DNA of 64,000 bases. Source: Aliiroseovarius pelagivivens (GTDB lineage Bacteria > Pseudomonadota > Alphaproteobacteria > Rhodobacterales > Rhodobacteraceae). Both the position numbers and the translations under genes were made by a program. The first letter of the stretch is position 1. Each line of letters opens with the position of its first letter. The DNA lies in NCBI RefSeq assembly GCF_900302485.1, contig NZ_OMOI01000001.1, forward strand, positions 2,436,798 to 2,500,797. Direction: 5' to 3'. The notes beneath the pieces were generated by a model. That model ran no database searches. It saw only the letters and a program-made list of their open reading frames with translations, and was not told the DNA's origin. Of this stretch, positions 18,397-26,693 are shown piece after piece.

Positions 18397-20442
18397 TTAC
18401 AGGTCTTTCACCAACCTCAGCGCGTCATAGATGGCAGCATGCGTGTTGCGTGCTGTCACGGCGTCGCCAATGCGGAACAGTTGGAACTGCCCGTCAGGGT
18501 TTGTACGGATGGTCTGCGGGCGCCCCTCGATCAGCGCATTGTGGTCCACTTCGCCCCGGTTTGATGACTGCTCTTTCAGGTCGAAATACAGATCATCCAT
18601 CGGCATCGTGCCGTAGTTCACCACCACCTGATCATAGGTCGCCTCGCGGGTGAACTCGGAATAATCGGTACCCAGCGTGACCCTCAGGCGATTGCCGTCG
18701 CGCTGAATGCCTTTCAGGCGCTCGGTCACGGTGAACCGCACCCCTTTGGGCTGCAGCGACCGCATATAGGGCACAAGGTTCATTGCCATGATATCCGGGG
18801 CGAATACGCGATCAGGTGTCATCACCTCGACCTTCGCACCGGCCTCAGAAGCGATCTCGGCGGCCTGCAGCGCCGGGTGGTCGCCGCTTTCGTCATAGAT
18901 CAGCACATCACCCGCGCATTTCACGTCGCCCGCGATCACGTCCCACGCGCTGACGGCCAAATCCTGCGCGCCCTTGGTCTCGAACAGTTCAAGGTTCGGC
19001 AGGCCGCCGGTGGCAACGATCACCACATCGGGGTTCAGGGCGGTCACGTCATGGGTCTCGGCCCATGTGTTGAAATGGAAGGTGACATCGCGGGCCGCAC
19101 ATTGCGCCATGCGCCAATCGACAATGCCGATCATCTCGCGCCGACGCGGCGTCTGAGAGGTCAGACGCACCTGCCCGCCGGGATCAGGCTGCGCTTCAAA
19201 GACGGTCACGTCGTGTCCACGCTCGGCGGCTACCCGCGCGGCCTCAAGCCCCGCAGGCCCAGCGCCCACGACCACCACCTTGCGGGGGGTGTCTGCAGGG
19301 GCAATCTCGTGCGGCATGGTCAGCTCGCGCCCGGTGGCAGCATTATGTACGCAGAGTGCATCGCCCGCCTGATAGATCCGATCCAGGCAGTAGGTGGCAC
19401 CAACACAGGGGCGAATGTCTTCTTCGCGCCCCTCGATGATCTTCTTCACGATATGCGGATCGGCCATGTGCGCGCGCGTCATGCCCACCATATCCAACTG
19501 CCCAGACGACACCGCGTGGCGCGCGGTTGCGACATCCGGAATGCGGGCCGCGTGGAAGGTGGGCATACCGATTTCCTTGCGGACCCGGCCTGCGAAATCC
19601 AAATGCGGCGAGGCCGGCGCGCCCTGAATGGGGATCATATCCGTCATCGCGGGGTCGGTATGAATGCGGCCCCGGTTGATGTTCAGGTAATCCACCTGCC
19701 CGCAGTCGCGCAGCATCCGCGCGATCTCCAGCCCCATATCTGGATCAATGCCGCCGGTCTCGACCTCGTCCGGTGCAAACCGAACCCCCACGATGAACTC
19801 ACGTCCCACGCGTGCGCGCACGGCTTCAATGATATCCATCGTCAGCTTCATCCGCCCGGCAAGATCGCCGCCATAGGGGCCTTCCAATCGGTTGGTCAGG
19901 GGCGAGATGAACTGGTCCAACAGGTGCCCGTGGGTCATCACCTCGACCCCGTCCATGCCGCCCTCTTTCATCCGCTCGGCTGCGTCAGCGAAGTCGGAAA
20001 TGATCCGCGAAATATCCCAATCCTCGGCCATTTTAGGGAAGGCCCGGTGGGCAGGCTCACGATGCGGAGTCGAGCACACAGGCGGCATCCAATCGCCCTT
20101 GTTCCACCCCGTACGCCGCCCCAGATGGGTCAGCTGGATCATGCAGGCCGCGCCATGTTCGTGCACCGCATCCGTCAGGTTTCTGATCCACGGAATAACC
20201 TCGTCCTTATAGGCAAGGATGTTGTTGAAGACGGGCGGACTGTCTTTCGACACCGCCGCTGATCCCGCCGTCATGGTCATCGCCACACCCGCCTTGGCGC
20301 GCTCAGCGTGATACGCAGCATATCGCTCTTTCGGCATCCCATCCTCGGGATAGGCCGGTTCATGGCTTGTCGTCATGATCCGGTTTCTCAGGGTCAGATG
20401 CCCCAACTGATATGGCTGCAAAAGTGGATCGTTCGACATCAT
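18397..20442 (-). CDS. NADH:flavin oxidoreductase of the trimethylamine/dimethylglycine dehydrogenase group (StcD/DgcA-like)
   Basis: 681 residues. The N-terminal two-thirds is an FMN TIM barrel of the Old Yellow Enzyme/TMADH group (PYQLGHLTLRNRIM, MTHGHLLDQFISPLTNR). The C-terminal third is an FAD/NAD-type domain (VVVGAGPAGLEAARVA). This architecture is that of trimethylamine and dimethylglycine demethylating dehydrogenases. Of the four Cys that bind the 4Fe-4S cluster in TMADH (345, 348, 351, 364), the counterparts here are Cys346, Ala349, Cys352 and Cys364, so one ligand is missing. It lies downstream of the MttB-like gene and probably demethylates a methylated amine. Confidence 0.85.
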   Translation of the reverse strand: MMSNDPLLQPYQLGHLTLRNRIMTTSHEPAYPEDGMPKERYAAYHAERAKAGVAMTMTAGSAAVSKDSPPVFNNILAYKDEVIPWIRNLTDAVHEHGAACMIQLTHLGRRTGWNKGDWMPPVCSTPHREPAHRAFPKMAEDWDISRIISDFADAAERMKEGGMDGVEVMTHGHLLDQFISPLTNRLEGPYGGDLAGRMKLTMDIIEAVRARVGREFIVGVRFAPDEVETGGIDPDMGLEIARMLRDCGQVDYLNINRGRIHTDPAMTDMIPIQGAPASPHLDFAGRVRKEIGMPTFHAARIPDVATARHAVSSGQLDMVGMTRAHMADPHIVKKIIEGREEDIRPCVGATYCLDRIYQAGDALCVHNAATGRELTMPHEIAPADTPRKVVVVGAGPAGLEAARVAAERGHDVTVFEAQPDPGGQVRLTSQTPRRREMIGIVDWRMAQCAARDVTFHFNTWAETHDVTALNPDVVIVATGGLPNLELFETKGAQDLAVSAWDVIAGDVKCAGDVLIYDESGDHPALQAAEIASEAGAKVEVMTPDRVFAPDIMAMNLVPYMRSLQPKGVRFTVTERLKGIQRDGNRLRVTLGTDYSEFTREATYDQVVVNYGTMPMDDLYFDLKEQSSNRGEVDHNALIEGRPQTIRTNPDGQFQLFRIGDAVTARNTHAAIYDALRLVKDL

Positions 20443-20454
20443 CCATCCTTTTCG

Positions 20455-20532
20455 ACTTGGGGCTTTCCCGCCCGTATTTTCTTACCACAAATATCCTGGG
20501 GGAGCGTCACAGACGCGGGGGCAAAGCCCCCT
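20455..20532 (-). repeat. Probable Rhodobacteraceae repeated extragenic element
   Basis: Between the two minus-strand genes lies a perfect hairpin, GGGGGC-AAA-GCCCCC (20517-20531). It is followed on the minus strand by GCGTCTGTGACGCTCCCCC and an AGGATATTTGTGGTAAGAAA tract. I recall this combination of a GGGGGCTTTGCCCCC stem and a GGATATTT tail as a common intergenic repeat in this family. No second copy was noticed in this window. It may attenuate transcription between the MttB-like gene and the flavoprotein gene. Confidence 0.5.
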
Positions 20533-20538
20533 CCACCC

Positions 20539-22098
20539 TCAATACCAGGCGTCATCCATCGAGGCTTTCTTGCGCGCAACAAAATCCTTCAACGCCTCAT
20601 CTGTTGCCGGATCCATCCCCGGCGCCTCATACGCCGCAAGTTGGGCCTTCCAGCGGGTGTTGGCACGGGTTGCCATGTCGATCTCGCCCTGTTCGTCCCA
20701 TGTCTCCCACGGCTGGTTGTCGTCCAGCGCGCTGTCGTAATAGGCCGTTTTATAGTGCCGCAAAGTATGGGCGGTCGCGAACAGGTGCTCACCCGGTCCT
20801 TTTTCGGCCAACGCGTCAAAACCCAACGTATCCTCGGTCACCACGACCCCATCGTAATAGGAATGCAGCGCGCCACACAGGTCCAGATCCAGCATGAACT
20901 TCTCATAGGACATGGACAGAAGCCCATCCAAGAAGCCCGCCGAGTGCAGCAGATAATTCGCCCCGCACTGCACCGCCGACATCATCGACATCATCGCCTG
21001 CTGCATCGCCTGAGCATCGGGAAGCTTCGAGGTCGAGAAGTTGCCCGCACAGCGCAGGGGAAGGTTCAAGCGGCGCGCCAACTGGCCATAGACCAGACTG
21101 CCCACCGCAGGCTCCGCCGTCCCAAATGTCGGTGAACCCGAGCGCAGCGACATCGAGCTAAGGAAGCTGGCAAGCACCACCGGCGCACCGGGACGTTCCA
21201 GCTGCGCCACCGCGCAGGACACCATGCTTTCCGCCAGACATTGCGCGATGGACCCAGCCATCGTCAGAGGCGACACCGCCCCGCCCAGCAAGAACGGCAA
21301 ATGAATCGAGCCCTGCCCCGCCTTGGCATACTCGCGAATGCCCTGCGTCGTGATCCCGTCCATAACCAAGGGGCTGGTGGTGTTAAAGTTCCCCATGATG
21401 ACGCAGTTCTGGTCGACAAAATCCGCGCCGAACAGCACGCGGCACATCTCGACACTATCGGCGGCGCGTTCTGGCGCAGTGACCGAGCCAAGAAACGGCC
21501 GGTCGGAATAGCGCATGTGGGCATAGACCATATCAAGATGGCGTTTGTTCACCGGCACATCGGTCGGTTCGCAAACCGTTCCGCCGGAATGGTGCAGCCA
21601 CGGGCTCATCTGGCCCAGCTTCACAAAGTTTTGGAAGTCCTCAAGCGTGCCATAGCGGCGACCCTTGTCCAGATCCATCACGAAAGGGCTTCCATACGAG
21701 GGCGCGAAGATCACATTGTCCCCGCCGACCTCGACATTGTTGGCCGGGTTGCGGGCGTGCTGAGTGAAGACCGCCGGTGCTGTCTTCAGGATCTCGCGGA
21801 TCATACCGGGCGCGAACTTGGTGTTCCACCGCGTGTCGTCCAGCTGCGTGACCTCGCCGCCAGCCTTGCGGAACATCTCGACCGTGTCGGAATCATCGCG
21901 AAACTCGATACCAATCTCGGCCATGATGCGGTCGGCTGTTGCCTCGATCTGCTGCAACGCGTCTTCACCAAGAATGTCGTAGGTAGGGATGCCGCGCTTG
22001 ATATAGGGACGCTCCAGATGCGGGTTCTGCCCCGGCGCACCATCGCGTGCCTCCCGTTTACCACGGCTGCGCCGCCGTCCTGTGCTTGGTTCGCTCAT
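20539..22098 (-). CDS. Trimethylamine methyltransferase (MttB) superfamily protein, non-pyrrolysine
   Basis: 519 residues from the ATG at 22098, with GGGAGGA a few bases upstream. Several in-frame codons further upstream run into the operator and are unlikely. The sequence (YDILGEDALQQIEATADRIM, YGSPFVMDLDKGRRYGTLED, NFNTTSPLVMDGITTQGIREY, FGTAEPAVGSLVYGQLARRL) matches the MttB superfamily. The frame has no internal TAG, so it is the non-Pyl type. Characterised members such as MtgB transfer a methyl group from a quaternary amine to a corrinoid protein. No separate corrinoid protein gene is seen nearby. Confidence 0.87.
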   Translation of the reverse strand: MSEPSTGRRRSRGKREARDGAPGQNPHLERPYIKRGIPTYDILGEDALQQIEATADRIMAEIGIEFRDDSDTVEMFRKAGGEVTQLDDTRWNTKFAPGMIREILKTAPAVFTQHARNPANNVEVGGDNVIFAPSYGSPFVMDLDKGRRYGTLEDFQNFVKLGQMSPWLHHSGGTVCEPTDVPVNKRHLDMVYAHMRYSDRPFLGSVTAPERAADSVEMCRVLFGADFVDQNCVIMGNFNTTSPLVMDGITTQGIREYAKAGQGSIHLPFLLGGAVSPLTMAGSIAQCLAESMVSCAVAQLERPGAPVVLASFLSSMSLRSGSPTFGTAEPAVGSLVYGQLARRLNLPLRCAGNFSTSKLPDAQAMQQAMMSMMSAVQCGANYLLHSAGFLDGLLSMSYEKFMLDLDLCGALHSYYDGVVVTEDTLGFDALAEKGPGEHLFATAHTLRHYKTAYYDSALDDNQPWETWDEQGEIDMATRANTRWKAQLAAYEAPGMDPATDEALKDFVARKKASMDDAWY

Positions 22099-22127
22099 CA
22101 CGTCCTCCCTTGTCATGAGTCGCATAG

Positions 22128-22164
22128 TTGACACAGGTGACATCTGATTTGACACATGTGTCAA
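22128..22164. promoter_or_regulatory. Divergent operator: perfect 16-bp palindrome plus a related imperfect copy
   Basis: TTGACACATGTGTCAA (22149-22164) is a perfect palindrome. A second site, TTGACACAGGTGACAT (22128-22143), shares its left half and is an imperfect dyad 21 bp away (about two helical turns). Both lie in the 86-bp gap between the divergent MttB-like and tetR genes. This is the expected position for TetR binding and control of both directions. Confidence 0.75.
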
Positions 22165-22176
22165 GTCACCTATGAT
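22149..22176 (+). promoter_or_regulatory. Near-consensus sigma-70 promoter for tetR
   Basis: TTGACA (22149-22154), a 16-bp spacer and TATGAT (22171-22176). The -35 box lies inside the perfect palindrome, so repressor binding would exclude polymerase. Transcription should begin at about 22183, only a couple of bases before the tetR ATG at 22185, implying a nearly leaderless mRNA. Confidence 0.7.
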
Positions 22177-22184
22177 GCGGGACT

Positions 22185-22802
22185 ATGGCTAAAAACGACA
22201 TACCCCGCCCGCGCGCCTCGGAACGCATGTGGCTTGATGCCGCGCTAGAGCTTTTGATTACCGTTGGTGTGGATGGGGTGAAGATCATGCCGCTGGCCAA
22301 TCACCTCGGCCTGACACGCACCGGATTCTATCACCACTTCCGCGACCGCGAGGCGCTGTTGGACGCTATGATCAAACGGTGGGAGGACAAGAACACAGGC
22401 AATTTGGTTGCCCAGTGCGCGCTCTATGCCGAGACCATCTGCGAAGCGATGTTCAACCTTCAGGATTGTTGGTTCCAGAAAGACCTTTTCGATGCCCAGC
22501 TTGACCGTGCCATCCGCAACTGGGCTGATCATGACGCAGACCTAGAACGGCGGGTGGAAGCCGCCGACGCCCAGCGCAAAGCTGCCATCAAAACGATGTT
22601 CGAACGCTTCGATTATTCCCCCGACGACGCCGAGGTGCGGACCATGGCGATCCTCTATACGCAGGTCGGCTATATCGCGATGGAGATCAAAGAAGACCCC
22701 ATCGGCCGGATCGACCGCGTTCCACTATATGTCGAACTTTTCACGGGTCAGTCACCCTCGGAAAACGAGATCCGGCGTTTTCGCGCACGGAACGGATATT
22801 GA
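22185..22802 (+). CDS. TetR/AcrR family transcriptional regulator
   Basis: 205 residues with an N-terminal TetR DNA-binding domain (AALELLITVGVDGVKIMPLA, then LGLTRTGFYHHFRDREALLD) and a C-terminal ligand-binding domain without obvious relatives. It is divergent from the MttB-like gene and 84 bp upstream of the reductive-dehalogenase-like fusion. It is the natural candidate for the palindromic operator in the 86-bp gap. The ligand is presumably the substrate of the locus; this is inference. Confidence 0.9.
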   Translation: MAKNDIPRPRASERMWLDAALELLITVGVDGVKIMPLANHLGLTRTGFYHHFRDREALLDAMIKRWEDKNTGNLVAQCALYAETICEAMFNLQDCWFQKDLFDAQLDRAIRNWADHDADLERRVEAADAQRKAAIKTMFERFDYSPDDAEVRTMAILYTQVGYIAMEIKEDPIGRIDRVPLYVELFTGQSPSENEIRRFRARNGY

Positions 22803-22886
22803 ATCCAATTTTTCTCTAGCGTCTGTTTTCCATCCATGCTTTTGGTATTCTAACACCTTATATACCTGACCGGACCGAAGGCAGCT

Positions 22887-25800
22887 TTGGCGTTTCCGGC
22901 AGAATGGACGACCGACATGCGCCTGTTTTCGACCCGCAATCGGCCCGTGGATCTGGGCCCCTACCCGCTTGAACGCCTACGCCGTTGCGACACGGCGCCC
23001 GGACTGGATCAGCTCGGCCTAGATCCGCATCTGTCCTTTGATCGGCCCGACCGCCCCGAAAGCCTTGTCAACGCAATGGCCCCTTATCAGGCGGCGCTGG
23101 ACGCGATCCGGGATGGAGAGATCAATCCAACCCGCTCGACCATTCCCGATGATCCAGACGAGCGCGCGCGTCACCTGAAGGCCTTTGGCTATTTCTCGGA
23201 CGCGTCGATGGTCGGGATCACACGGTTGGACGCGGATGCCCGTCGCCACACACCCACCGAAAATCCCGGCATTCAGGAGCTGGTCACGGCCCTCGGCACC
23301 CGCGAGGTCCAGACGCTGGCCGCCGGGATCGACACGTTGATGGCCGAGTTGAAGGAAAGCCTGTCTGCTGGCATCCGCCCCGTGTCGGGTCACAGCCACG
23401 CGATAGTCTTTCTGTACGAACACCACCGTGCCCCCCGCGCAGACGAGCCGGGCGCGGATTGGATCATGGACGCGCAGGACCACCGCGCCTGTCTTCTGTC
23501 CTCGGAAACCGCCATCGTAATTGCGAACTATCTGCGGCTTTTGGGGTTCGACGCGAAGGCCCACACGGGTGCGGCCAGCGATGTCTGGATGTCTCGGCTG
23601 TCCGTACAGGCCGGGCTGACATGGGCAACGCCGGATGGCCCACGTGCCCCGTGGGTCGGCGACCAATTCGGCATTGCCGTCGTCACCACCGATCTTGAGA
23701 TCACGCCCGACCGCCCCCTTGCCCCCGAGGCTGAGCAATCGAACCTGACCGGTTTGCGGTGGAAGCTGGGCGTGGACAGCGCCAAATCCGGCATGAACCG
23801 CGATCCTTATGTACGTCGCGACTATGCCCAAGGCCCGCTGCCCTTCGAGCGGTTGAAGCGTGTCGACAAGCCCACGTCCTATATCGACGAAGAAAACGTC
23901 GCGCGCGTGCCGAAACGATCCGACATGTTCGCCCGTGCGCAGTTTGGCGATATGGGCAAGCACCTGCACGAGCATTCCTCGGGCGGGATGTATGTGCGCA
24001 AAGCCGCCCCCAGCTATGCCCAGCGCCGCGCGCTTGGGGTCTTTACGCCGCTGCAAGATGGTCCTGTGGCGAAGGGCGCGCGACCGACAGACGCGGAAAA
24101 CAACGCCGCCGCCCTGCGCGCCGCCAGCTATTTCCTTGGGATCGACGCGGCCGGGACTAGCCGCTGCCCGGACTGGGTTTGGTACAGCCACGACGCCACC
24201 GGGGCCGAGATCGTGCCGACCCATCACAACGCGATCTCGATGATCGTGGATCAGGGCTTTGAAACGATGGAGGGCGCGTCCGGCGACGACTGGATTGCGG
24301 TCAGCCAATCCATGCGCGCCTATCTGCGGTTCTCGCTGATCGGAGGCGTCATCGCCCAGCAGATCCGCAACCTCGGCTATTCCGCCAAGGCCCATACGGT
24401 GATGGATGGTACGGTGCTACAACCGCCGCTGCTGCTTCTCGCCGGATTGGGCGAAATCAGCCGCATCGGCGAGGTTATTTTGCATCCCCTGCTTGGCCCG
24501 CGTCTGAAATCCGGCGCGGTGACGACGGACATGCCGCTGTCCCATGACAGACCAATTGATTTCGGCCTGCAGAAGTTTTGCGAATCTTGCAACAAATGCG
24601 CCCGCGAGTGCCCCTCGGGCGCGATCACAGCCGGACCAAAGAAGATGTTCAACGGCTATGAGATCTGGAAATCGGACAGCCAGAAATGCACCACCTATCG
24701 CGTGACGCAGCCGGGCGGCGCGATGTGTGGGCGCTGCATGAAGACCTGCCCGTGGAACCTTGAGGGGCTGTTTGCGCAGACGCCGTTCCGCTGGGCAGCT
24801 TCAAACCTGCCGGGGGCAGCGCCTGTCTTGGCGAAGCTCGATGATGCGGTCGGCAATGGCGGCCTGAACGAGGTTAAGAAATGGTGGTGGGATTTGGAGC
24901 TGGGGCCGGATGGCGGCTATCACGCACCGGTCGAGCCGGTGAACCGTCGTGGTCTTCAGCGCGAGCTTGACCTGAAGCCCGAGGATCAGACCCTTGCGAC
25001 CTATCCCGCGCCCCTGGCCCCGCCGCCCTATCCCTATCCGTTCCCGATGGACCGCGAGGCCGGGATTGCGGCCTATGACGCGATGATCACGGCCAAGGAG
25101 TATCGCGATCGCAAAGCACGTGGCGATCTGTCGATGATCCACAAGTATTTCGTCCCGCAAGACAGCCCCGTGCTGCAGCTGACCCTGTCGAAGGTCGAAC
25201 AGATGACGCCGAACGTCACAAAATACGAGCTGTCCGCGCTGGACGGATCGGATTTGCCCGCATGGACCGCCGGGGCGCATCTGGATGTGCTCGTCTCGCC
25301 CGATTTCTTGCGGCAGTATTCGATGTCCGGCGATCCGGCTGACCGCAGCCGCTATCAGATCGGCGTCCTGCGCGAAGACGAGGGGCGTGGCGGCTCGGCT
25401 CTTTTGCACCGCATCTTCACCGAGGGCCGCAAGGTCTTCGTCTCGCACCCCATCAACCACTTTGAACTGGTCGAGGACGCCCCCAAGACCTTCCTGATGG
25501 GAGGCGGTATCGGTATCACCCCGATGATCGCGTTCGCGCACCGTCTGCACACCATCGGTGCGGATTTCGCACTGCATTACTCGGCCAGCAGCCGGAAGGA
25601 TGCGGGGTATCTGGACGACTTGGCCGCGATGCCGTGGGCCGACCGCGTACATCTGCATTTCTCGGACGAAGGCAGCCGTGCTGATTTCAATACTGTGTTC
25701 ACAGACGCCCCGGATGGCGCGCATGTTTATGCCTGTGGGGCGGATCGTTATATGGACGCCGTGATGCAGGCCGCGGCCACTCAAGGCATCCCCGAGGACG

Positions 25801-26114
25801 CGCGGCATCTGGAGTATTTCAGCGTGCCCGAGCAGCCTGACTATGAAAACCACCCGTTCTCCTTGCGCCTGAAAGATGGTCGCAAGATCGAAGTCTCTGC
25901 GGATCAAACCGCTGCAGACGCCTTGAACGGCGCTGGGTTCCATGTCGACGTCAAATGCTCGGACGGGATCTGTGGCGTGTGCAAATGCGGCGTGCTGTCA
26001 GGCGAAGTCGAACACCGCGACTTTGTCCTGTCCAACGCCCAGCGCGAAGGCGCCATGATCCTGTGCCAAAGCCGTGCAAAGGACCCGGACGGAGAGATTG
26101 CGCTGGATCTGTAG
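22887..26114 (+). CDS. Reductive-dehalogenase-type B12/Fe-S domain fused to an NADH-dependent flavin/2Fe-2S reductase
   Basis: About 1075 residues. The first 640 or so match the cobalamin-dependent reductive dehalogenase/CblC-like fold, with two 4Fe-4S motifs: Cys565, 568, 571, 575 and Cys601, 614, 617, 621. The rest is a phthalate-dioxygenase-reductase-like module: flavin motif RQYSMSG (809-815), NAD motif GGGIGITPM (872-880) and plant-type 2Fe-2S ligands Cys1024, 1029, 1032, 1060. This is the self-sufficient architecture described for BhbA and the Nitratireductor RdhA. There is no Tat signal, so it is cytoplasmic. The TTG at 22887 has GAAGG five bases upstream; the ATG at 22917 is the alternative start. 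Substrate unknown. Confidence 0.87.
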   Translation: MAFPAEWTTDMRLFSTRNRPVDLGPYPLERLRRCDTAPGLDQLGLDPHLSFDRPDRPESLVNAMAPYQAALDAIRDGEINPTRSTIPDDPDERARHLKAFGYFSDASMVGITRLDADARRHTPTENPGIQELVTALGTREVQTLAAGIDTLMAELKESLSAGIRPVSGHSHAIVFLYEHHRAPRADEPGADWIMDAQDHRACLLSSETAIVIANYLRLLGFDAKAHTGAASDVWMSRLSVQAGLTWATPDGPRAPWVGDQFGIAVVTTDLEITPDRPLAPEAEQSNLTGLRWKLGVDSAKSGMNRDPYVRRDYAQGPLPFERLKRVDKPTSYIDEENVARVPKRSDMFARAQFGDMGKHLHEHSSGGMYVRKAAPSYAQRRALGVFTPLQDGPVAKGARPTDAENNAAALRAASYFLGIDAAGTSRCPDWVWYSHDATGAEIVPTHHNAISMIVDQGFETMEGASGDDWIAVSQSMRAYLRFSLIGGVIAQQIRNLGYSAKAHTVMDGTVLQPPLLLLAGLGEISRIGEVILHPLLGPRLKSGAVTTDMPLSHDRPIDFGLQKFCESCNKCARECPSGAITAGPKKMFNGYEIWKSDSQKCTTYRVTQPGGAMCGRCMKTCPWNLEGLFAQTPFRWAASNLPGAAPVLAKLDDAVGNGGLNEVKKWWWDLELGPDGGYHAPVEPVNRRGLQRELDLKPEDQTLATYPAPLAPPPYPYPFPMDREAGIAAYDAMITAKEYRDRKARGDLSMIHKYFVPQDSPVLQLTLSKVEQMTPNVTKYELSALDGSDLPAWTAGAHLDVLVSPDFLRQYSMSGDPADRSRYQIGVLREDEGRGGSALLHRIFTEGRKVFVSHPINHFELVEDAPKTFLMGGGIGITPMIAFAHRLHTIGADFALHYSASSRKDAGYLDDLAAMPWADRVHLHFSDEGSRADFNTVFTDAPDGAHVYACGADRYMDAVMQAAATQGIPEDARHLEYFSVPEQPDYENHPFSLRLKDGRKIEVSADQTAADALNGAGFHVDVKCSDGICGVCKCGVLSGEVEHRDFVLSNAQREGAMILCQSRAKDPDGEIALDL

Positions 26115-26207
26115 CCTCACGCGCACCTCACAGAAACGTCATCACAATCGGTGATCCGGACCCGGAAGCCCCCCGTACTCCTTGTATCTGAAAACAAGGA
26201 GATCAAC

Positions 26208-26693
26208 ATGCTTCGTCGTACATTCATCGCCGTCACCGCTGCCGCCGCCTTTGCCGCTCCGGCTTTCGCAGATGACCATTCCAAGGACATCGTCGATACT
26301 GCGGTCGGCGCAGGCAGCTTCACCACACTGGTCGCCGCCGTTCAGGCCGCCGGTCTGGTCGACACCCTGAAGGGCGACGGCCCCTTCACCGTCTTCGCCC
26401 CAACAGATGATGCTTTCGCAGCCCTGCCTGAAGGCACAGTCGAAACGCTGCTGATGCCGGAAAACAAAGACAAGCTGGTATCAATTCTGACCTATCACGT
26501 GGTCCCCGGCAAAGTGATGTCCGGCGATCTGTCGGACGGCATGATGGCCGCCACCGTGCAGGGCGCTGAGGTCAAAATCGGCACCATGTCCGGCGTAACC
26601 GTTCAGGGCGCCAACGTCACCGCTGCCGACATCGAAGCCTCGAACGGTGTGATCCATGTAATCGACAGCGTGATCCTGCCCCCGGAAAGCTAA
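26208..26693 (+). CDS. Secreted fasciclin (FAS1) domain protein
   Basis: 161 residues from an ATG with AAGGAG six bases upstream. A signal peptide ([20 protein letters not shown]) precedes a single FAS1 domain with the two typical segments: [20 protein letters not shown] and [16 protein letters not shown], ending [17 protein letters not shown]1 proteins mediate adhesion or surface interactions. It is a monocistronic gene closed by a clear terminator. Confidence 0.93.

Follow-up and report, generated by a model that had tools for sequence, protein, structure and literature searches.

A 64,000-nucleotide stretch of the Aliiroseovarius pelagivivens genome (NCBI RefSeq assembly GCF_900302485.1, contig NZ_OMOI01000001.1, positions 2,436,798 to 2,500,797 of the forward strand; hereafter the window) carries, at positions 18397–26114, a flavoprotein, an MttB-superfamily methyltransferase, a TetR-family regulator, and a reductive dehalogenase (RDase) fused to a reductase. 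These genes very probably form 2 independent catabolic modules that happen to be neighbours, namely a betaine demethylation module (module 1: TetR, MttB, and the flavoprotein) and a debrominase module (module 2: the RDase fusion), and not one pathway. This reading rests on domains, residues, distributions, synteny, and operator position, from which we infer substrates, an electron path, regulation, and an order of events. The initial annotation, which joined the 4 genes in a single cobalamin-dependent demethylation pathway, had placed them correctly: all 4 are intact open reading frames (ORFs), and Pfam and NCBIfam profiles, which were used for the family assignments, confirmed their families. 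The features are as follows.

18397–20442, minus strand: flavoprotein of the OYE/TMADH type (PF00724 and Pyr_redox), intact ORF, 681 aa, module 1
20539–22095, minus strand: MttB/MtgB-superfamily cobalamin methyltransferase (PF06253), ORF intact to 22164, module 1
22128–22143, no strand: weaker copy of the palindrome below, in the same MttB/TetR gap
22149–22164, no strand: perfect palindrome TTGACACATGTGTCAA, presumed TetR operator for tetR and mttB, covering a −35-like hexamer
22185–22802, plus strand: TetR-family regulator, intact ORF, accompanying MttB and the flavoprotein
22803–22916, plus strand: TetR-RDase gap, the place of a sulfatase gene in several sister species, absent from this site in the window
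22917–26114, plus strand: RDase-reductase fusion (NpRdhA-like RdhA and a phthalate-dioxygenase-reductase-like domain), module 2
24321–24701, plus strand: RDase catalytic set Y479 (24321–24323), K541 (24507–24509), and R605 (24699–24701), matching NpRdhA Y426/K488/R552
25152–26111, plus strand: C-terminal reductase of the RDase with flavin/NAD(P)H and [2Fe-2S] ferredoxin domains (residues 756–1075 against 2pia)
26151–26693: fasciclin-domain protein gene following the RDase, from a domain scan of the window

The RDase-fusion ORF was listed as 22887–26114 (plus strand, TTG start, 1075 aa) and the MttB ORF with a TTG start at 22164. The real starts are probably ATG 22917 and ATG 22095, respectively, since the listed starts extend the ORFs beyond the start of NpRdhA or into the operator.

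Distribution of the 2 modules across genera and within the genus

For the comparison across genera, we used 198 genomes, one per genus (197 after leaving out that of A. pelagivivens), and scored the best 3–7 candidates per genome at E-value cut-offs of 1e-200 (RDase and sulfatase), 1e-220 (MttB), and 1e-250 (flavoprotein); the co-occurrence p values ignore phylogeny. Among the 197 genomes, 78 were positive for the RDase, 79 for the sulfatase (described below), 35 for MttB, and 100 for the flavoprotein. MttB and the flavoprotein occurred jointly in 34 genomes, that is to say, in 34 of the 35 MttB genomes, compared with 17.8 expected (p = 9e-11). By contrast, the RDase was found together with MttB in 11 of the 197 genomes (13.9 expected, p = 0.34) and together with the flavoprotein in 37 (39.6 expected, p = 0.47); the sulfatase was also independent of MttB (15 joint, 14.0 expected). 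In the 11 genomes possessing both, the RDase and MttB are located on separate contigs or at least 90 kb apart, and no RDase was found in the flanks of the MttB loci in any of the 11. The RDase is distributed independently of MttB and of the flavoprotein.

Within the genus, 21 genomes (including that of A. pelagivivens) were searched with MttB, the RDase, and the flavoprotein. The RDase and MttB are linked in 13 of them (the window genome G000 and G002, G003, G004, G005, G007, G011, G013, G015, G016, G017, G018, and G020); gene order was read in 9 of the other 12 linked genomes, and G003, G015, and G018 were judged from coordinates. The 2 genes are apart in 5 genomes (G006, G008, G009, G014, and G019), in all of which the flanks on either side of the RDase lack MttB; G009 has only part of MttB, at the end of a contig. 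The remaining genomes are G012, which has no RDase, G001, which has no close MttB, and G010, which is too fragmented to decide. In G006, G008, G009, and G014, the RDase occupies the same chromosomal site without a TetR gene beside it, flanked by UbiA, OmpA-like, and 109-aa genes on one side and by histidine kinase and FAD oxidoreductase genes on the other, whereas the G019 RDase has the kinase side of this site alone in common. In G012, the TetR-MttB-flavoprotein set is present at that chromosomal site and the RDase is missing. Therefore, each module can be gained or lost alone.

A set of named genomes provided 59 RDase loci, 15 of which end at contig ends and some of which are the same records as genomes of the genus set. 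A close MttB (at least 88% identity) lies within 10 kb of the RDase in 6 of these 59 loci, all from Aliiroseovarius; the 59 also include one 4-kb Aliiroseovarius fragment and a locus (L040) with an MttB homologue of 31% identity 3 kb away. The closest named RDase loci are those of Aliiroseovarius, with 90%–94% identity and flanking genes identical in kind.

The initial annotation had proposed a co-occurrence check of the 4 genes and had named independent distribution of the MttB-like and RDase-like genes as evidence against its pathway. MttB and the flavoprotein co-occur, and the RDase is independent of both. Because the distributions are independent at both the genus and the family level, the one-pathway reading fails, and the 4 genes, whose 2 modules are apart in 5 of the 21 genus genomes, do not appear to constitute a unit.

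The putative operator

The gap between MttB and TetR contains the perfect 16-bp palindrome and its weaker copy, and these 2 sites are all the matches in the window to TTGACAC-NN-GTGTCAA with up to 2 mismatches (0.15 expected). No inverted repeat was found in the TetR-RDase gap at the settings used. Thus, the shared operator of the initial annotation stands on the MttB side of TetR and has no counterpart on the RDase side. For 21 TetR-MttB loci, 20 of them lacking an RDase, the closest match inside or next to the gap differed at no more than 2 of 14 positions in 18 loci, at 3 in L124, and at 4 in L157 and L161. The exact sequence TTGACA-N4-TGTCAA was present in 11 of these 21 loci, compared with none of the 6 RDase loci without TetR (L127–L132). 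A further match, close to an RDase, falls within an upstream gene (L148/L052, probably a single record). Judged by this occurrence, the operator appears to belong to module 1, which would be a TetR-regulated cobalamin-dependent demethylation unit.

The RDase fusion

By its sequence features, the window fusion is assigned as a full-length, catabolic, self-sufficient reductive dehalogenase of the NpRdhA/JtRdhA/BhbA type, ordinary in kind. Residues 10–740 match NpRdhA (4ras/6zxu) in 2 stretches with ~530 bits, and residues 756–1075 match phthalate dioxygenase reductase (PDOR; 2pia) with 180.8 bits. The NCBIfam RDH model TIGR02486 gave 204.9 bits against a cut-off of 160.35; it matches the ORF twice, separately, the first match being weak (38.3 bits). 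Residues Y479, K541, and R605 are the equivalents of NpRdhA Y426, K488, and R552, whose roles as catalytic residues are described in excerpts of PMC10463259. The enzyme has 2 [4Fe-4S] motifs (CxxCxxxC from residues 568 and 614, ORF numbering) and 1 [2Fe-2S] motif. In an alignment of the window RDase and 61 relatives (900 aa), the Y/K/R set and the 6 tested CxxCxxxC cysteines are invariant in 62 of 62 rows. The fusion is therefore not divergent, as the initial annotation had called it: it resembles NpRdhA, passes the RDH cut-off, and retains the catalytic residues.

According to excerpts of PMC10463259, JtRdhA (Jhaorihella thermophila) and BhbA (Comamonas sp. 7D-2) are fusions that contain 2 cobalamin domains, one vestigial and one functional, and phenols are debrominated by JtRdhA in an NADPH-driven reaction. 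The window RDase is similar to both in this pair of cobalamin domains and also in its 2 [4Fe-4S] motifs, its Y-K-R set, and its C-terminal PDOR reductase; its likeness to NpRdhA (4ras, 6zxu) concerns the RdhA part. As a difference from these systems, part of the relatives of the window RDase neighbour a sulfatase gene. By homology, electrons would pass from hydride through flavin, the 2Fe-2S cluster, and the two 4Fe-4S clusters to cobalamin, with Tyr479-Lys541 as the proton donor. The enzyme would be soluble, NAD(P)H-driven, and cobalamin-dependent, taking ortho bromine or iodine off phenols for catabolism. In excerpts of PMC13101508, Ros_A3X954 of Roseobacter sp. MED193 debrominates 2,6-dibromophenol, and the authors describe putative bhbA homologues as widespread across the Roseobacter clade. 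Ros_A3X954 and the window RDase are both catabolic RDases from the same bacterial group, likened here by the description in those excerpts.

Outside the genus, the RDase neighbours gave no guide to its pathway, with no dominant family among 114 neighbour-cluster representatives from 50 loci (within two genes, 120–800 aa); the largest of the first 25 of 166 families are those of FAD-dependent oxidoreductases, with 6 members, and LysR substrate domains, with 5. Within the genus, the fasciclin-domain gene 3′ of the RDase is present in some Aliiroseovarius and absent in others (e.g., L010 and L012). The RDase genes G009:C1:24204–27437 and G013:C1:49819–53031 each contain one in-frame TGA, the RDase of G007 (C168, a fragmented assembly) is split over 2 frames, and the G006 sulfatase is shortened to 291 aa. 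These lesions are signs of module 2 decay in some species.

Corrinoid protein and activase elsewhere in the genome

The initial annotation saw neither a corrinoid protein nor a RamA-type activase in the window, and our profile search agrees: neither the corrinoid-protein domain PF02607 nor the RACo/RamA domain PF14574 occurs there. Each domain has a single match in the genome, both located elsewhere on the same contig. The PF02607 protein (G000:C1:1490189–1490893, 234 aa) is MtgC/MtbC-like and is followed by a DUF1638 protein; the RACo/RamA-type activase (C1:1248098–1250125) is near a PF00809 pterin-binding protein. Neither the corrinoid protein nor the activase reaches the NCBIfam cut-off of its named model, MtgC or RamA. 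The genome encodes 3 MttB proteins.

Excerpts of a 2025 study of Ruegeria pomeroyi (PMC12478193) report that one MtgC serves both glycine betaine demethylation and methionine synthesis, that MtgC and MtgD mutants fail in both processes, that RamA and a DUF1638 protein rise together with MtgC, and that up to seven PF06253 proteins may share MtgC/MtgD. The window genome is similar to the MtgBCD system of R. pomeroyi DSS-3 in those excerpts, with a PF06253 enzyme in an aerobic roseobacter, an MtgC-type protein beside DUF1638, and RamA elsewhere. By this analogy, the question of the "missing" corrinoid protein seems to be largely answered in print by a shared MtgC. In A. pelagivivens, MttB would demethylate a quaternary amine and hand the methyl group over to the single MtgC-like corrinoid protein, which the RamA/RACo protein encoded elsewhere would keep active. 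Unlike MtgBCD, the window MttB accompanies TetR and a flavoprotein, and it may take another betaine.

The TetR-MttB-flavoprotein module

The window MttB matches PF06253 with 701.7 bits over model positions 2–499 of 500, and its frame is open with no in-frame amber codon, which makes it a non-pyrrolysine enzyme. The flavoprotein consists of an OYE barrel (PF00724 at 7–341) and FAD/NAD-binding halves (PF07992 at 371–495). Of the four cysteines in the TMADH-type [4Fe-4S] motif, as found in FadH (1ps9), it has only 3, with the altered spacing C-x5-C-x11-C, a pattern common to 23 of 23 listed relatives. A second flavoprotein of this kind at some MttB loci, OYE2, has C-x2-C-x3-C in 8 of 13 rows, and the pattern is missing in the other 5. 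Among the best 120 of 7998 matches, the flavoprotein relatives at ~78% identity are in some cases named N-methylproline demethylase and in more cases NADH:flavin oxidoreductase.

MttB is present in 36 of the 198 genomes, that of A. pelagivivens included. The surroundings of MttB were examined at 29 loci, of which 5 are from the genus and the others represent 24 of the 35 additional MttB-positive genera. The neighbouring regulator is a divergent TetR in 21 loci, a LysR-type regulator in 6, and neither in 2, and in 20 loci the gene immediately downstream of MttB encodes the flavoprotein. OYE2 is present in 13 loci, a ProC-like reductase (PF03807) in 7, and a proline-racemase-family protein (PF05544) in 2; the LysR, ProC-like, and racemase assignments were made from one scanned member per cluster. 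The TetR-MttB-flavoprotein set is a conserved unit in many roseobacter genera with a recurring operator, which supports the proposal of the initial annotation that MttB and a StcD-like dehydrogenase, governed together by TetR, could strip methyl groups from a quaternary amine. The LysR-type regulators, which belong to 2 clusters, stand in the place of TetR in L123, L154, and L164–L167.

MttB and the flavoprotein probably add a new member to the demethylation systems of the MtgB type, and a betaine is the probable substrate of the module; the StcD-like flavoprotein would take the next methyl group off oxidatively after MttB. With perhaps an even chance, the substrate is a proline-type betaine, which is favoured by the ProC-like and racemase genes linked to MttB and by the N-methylproline demethylase names among the flavoprotein relatives. 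StcD is reportedly an N-methylproline demethylase. MtpB and StcD represent the 2 activities that together would achieve stepwise proline-betaine demethylation, and the family name of the window flavoprotein agrees with the second; MtpB of Eubacterium limosum is a proline-betaine methyltransferase cited in excerpts of PMC12478193. A literature search for a homarine pathway as an explanation of MttB returned nothing evidently tying homarine to MttB.

In 3 genomes in which the 2 modules are separate, the TetR-MttB-flavoprotein set adjoins bhcABCD of the beta-hydroxyaspartate cycle (L118, L119, and L121, which are G006, G008, and G014). All 4 bhc products are above the NCBIfam cut-offs in L118, and the same clusters are present in L119 and L121. 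This adjacency could fit glycine- or glyoxylate-yielding amines.

A sulfatase as the likely partner of the RDase

Of the 21 genus genomes, 8 (G001, G005, G008, G011, G013, G014, G016, and G019) have a complete, arylsulfatase-like sulfatase gene (~551 aa) directly upstream of the RDase and co-oriented with it, and a shortened one is present in G006 and G007. The protein matches PF00884 with 150.2 bits. Its signature in 19 rows is CGASR in 11, CGPSR in 1, and the atypical CGSSR in 6, with none in 1 (a gene model without the N-terminus). The RDase-linked sulfatase has both features of a type I (formylglycine) sulfatase, namely PF00884 and C-x-A/P-S-R. The best structural matches are 4upl (790.7 bits) and 4upi (610.8 bits), whose PDB titles read only "sulfatase family protein"; we take them to be SpAS of Ruegeria pomeroyi, an arylsulfatase. 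The window genome has no sulfatase at the RDase site, and a homologue of 70% identity is encoded on another contig (G000:C2:662643–664271). Outside the genus, sulfatases of the same family (62%–68% identity) are near the RDase in other gene orders (L035, L046, L051, and L058); L048 has only a distant sulfatase (30%).

The RDase and the sulfatase occurred jointly in 52 of the 197 genomes compared with 31.3 expected (p = 1.2e-9), and 5 of the 52 joint pairs are within 10 kb, compared with 0.27 expected by uniform placement (191 bp in G108, 1.6 kb in G181, 5.2 kb in G220, 7.8 kb in G125, and 9.7 kb in G101). In the window genome and 60 relatives, 27 have the RDase, 26 the sulfatase, and 23 both; G012 is without both. 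Genome size was considered as the cause of this association and rejected, as the link, though weak in small genomes, remains in the middle (p = 0.03) and large (p = 1e-5) size strata. The stratified test was made without 33 RDase-negative genomes whose size was not given; all 33 are sulfatase-negative, and the test therefore leans against the association.

The sulfatase is thus the likely partner of the RDase. As a formylglycine-type enzyme, it would release the phenol from a sulfate ester before the RDase step, and the pair would act on sulfate esters of halogenated phenols, a class to which the lanosol sulfates of red algae belong. A literature search on lanosol sulfate degradation returned nothing to the point, judging by titles. 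No publication joining an RDase with a sulfatase was found in the open-access literature (subscription papers and preprints being outside the scope), and the pairing appears to be unreported.

In G217, a genome of another genus (L150:8312–14130), the genes after TetR encode, in order, a sulfatase, a binding protein of the OpuAC type, an ABC ATPase, and a protein of 680 aa; this row is divergent from MttB and the flavoprotein. No RDase is beside this set; the G217 RDase is on another contig. The set may serve uptake and desulfation of a sulfated betaine. A common origin of the G217 and the Aliiroseovarius RDase-linked sulfatases was rejected: the tree puts them in different groups, with Aliiroseovarius, G101, and G144 together at 99/97 and the G217 group at 87/85 with an open inner fork at 89/89.

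Weighing of the alternatives

The one-pathway reading of the initial annotation made the RDase-like fusion the corrinoid partner of MttB, either accepting the methyl group or keeping cob(I)alamin reduced. The adjacency of the genes in 13 of 21 genus genomes and the window without a corrinoid protein had favoured it, but it is next to untenable, given the independent distribution of the RDase and MttB, their separation in 5 genus genomes, the retention of MttB-OYE-TetR without an RDase in G012, the intact and invariant residues of a canonical debrominase, the MtgC-like and RamA/RACo proteins elsewhere in the genome, and the shared MtgC that serves MtgB-type enzymes of R. pomeroyi in excerpts of PMC12478193. 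A single pathway could also act on a composite substrate, that is, a sulfated, halogenated, and N-methylated phenolic amine such as a brominated tyrosine or tyramine betaine sulfate. The gene order of G005, G007, G011, G013, and G016, 5 of the 13 linked genomes, which is TetR > sulfatase > RDase opposite a divergent MttB-OYE pair, and the G217 order TetR > sulfatase > OpuAC-type transporter beside MttB-OYE would fit such a pathway. It is highly doubtful, as the RDase is independent of MttB and OYE across genera, the sulfatase is independent of MttB, the ProC-like and proline-racemase neighbours of MttB-OYE suggest proline-type amines, and the site is without a sulfatase in 8 of the 13 linked genomes. 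In its most specific form, in which the Aliiroseovarius TetR-MttB-flavoprotein, sulfatase, and RDase make up one inducible pathway for sulfated, brominated or iodinated, N-methylated phenolic amines of the tyrosine- or tyramine-betaine type from seaweeds, sponges, or ascidians, the idea is very unlikely; if true, cobalamin would be used twice, in demethylation and in dehalogenation. Regulatory capture, in which the tetR promoter of this lineage would now drive the RDase and place it under the same control as mttB while the 2 modules still serve separate pathways, is possible though on the unlikely side. TetR and the RDase are co-directional and 114 bp apart by the likely start codon, and the gap has no plus-strand terminator-like site or inverted repeat; however, the RDase is located at the same site without TetR in G006, G008, G009, and G014, and its upstream gap has no operator-like repeat. 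Such capture is compatible with 2 modules.

Several observations weigh against 2 independent modules with a sulfatase as the RDase partner. The modules are adjacent in 13 of the 21 genus genomes, and read-through from the TetR promoter is possible because TetR, the sulfatase (when present), and the RDase are co-directional. In 47 of the 52 joint genomes, the RDase and the sulfatase are more than 10 kb apart or on separate contigs, and at the cut-off used, 26 of the 78 RDase genomes are negative for the sulfatase. The statistic for this pair ignores phylogeny and is weak in small genomes (10/22 versus 7/22, p = 0.54). The sulfatase substrate need not be a halophenol, because the G217 sulfatase of the same family adjoins TetR-MttB and a betaine-type ABC transporter. 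In addition, the activity of Ros_A3X954 is lost in oxygen according to excerpts of PMC13101508, which fits poorly with an aerobic catabolic role, although JtRdhA is active in air. We nevertheless prefer 2 independent modules, which would have become adjacent when the TetR cassette landed beside a sulfatase-RDase pair in some Aliiroseovarius species; the sulfatase gene is missing from the site in the lineage of the window.

Implications

The proposed single new pathway falls, and a false lead is avoided. Further methylated compounds are suggested, in excerpts of PMC12478193, as substrates of PF06253 proteins that are still unassigned, and the TetR-MttB-flavoprotein unit is a concrete candidate for one of these. 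The RDase is a known kind of debrominase, and the sulfatase link is the new part: marine roseobacters may free bromophenols from sulfate esters ahead of reductive debromination. The sulfatase-RDase pair would connect the marine bromine and sulfate-ester cycles and would give the widespread roseobacter RDases a natural substrate.

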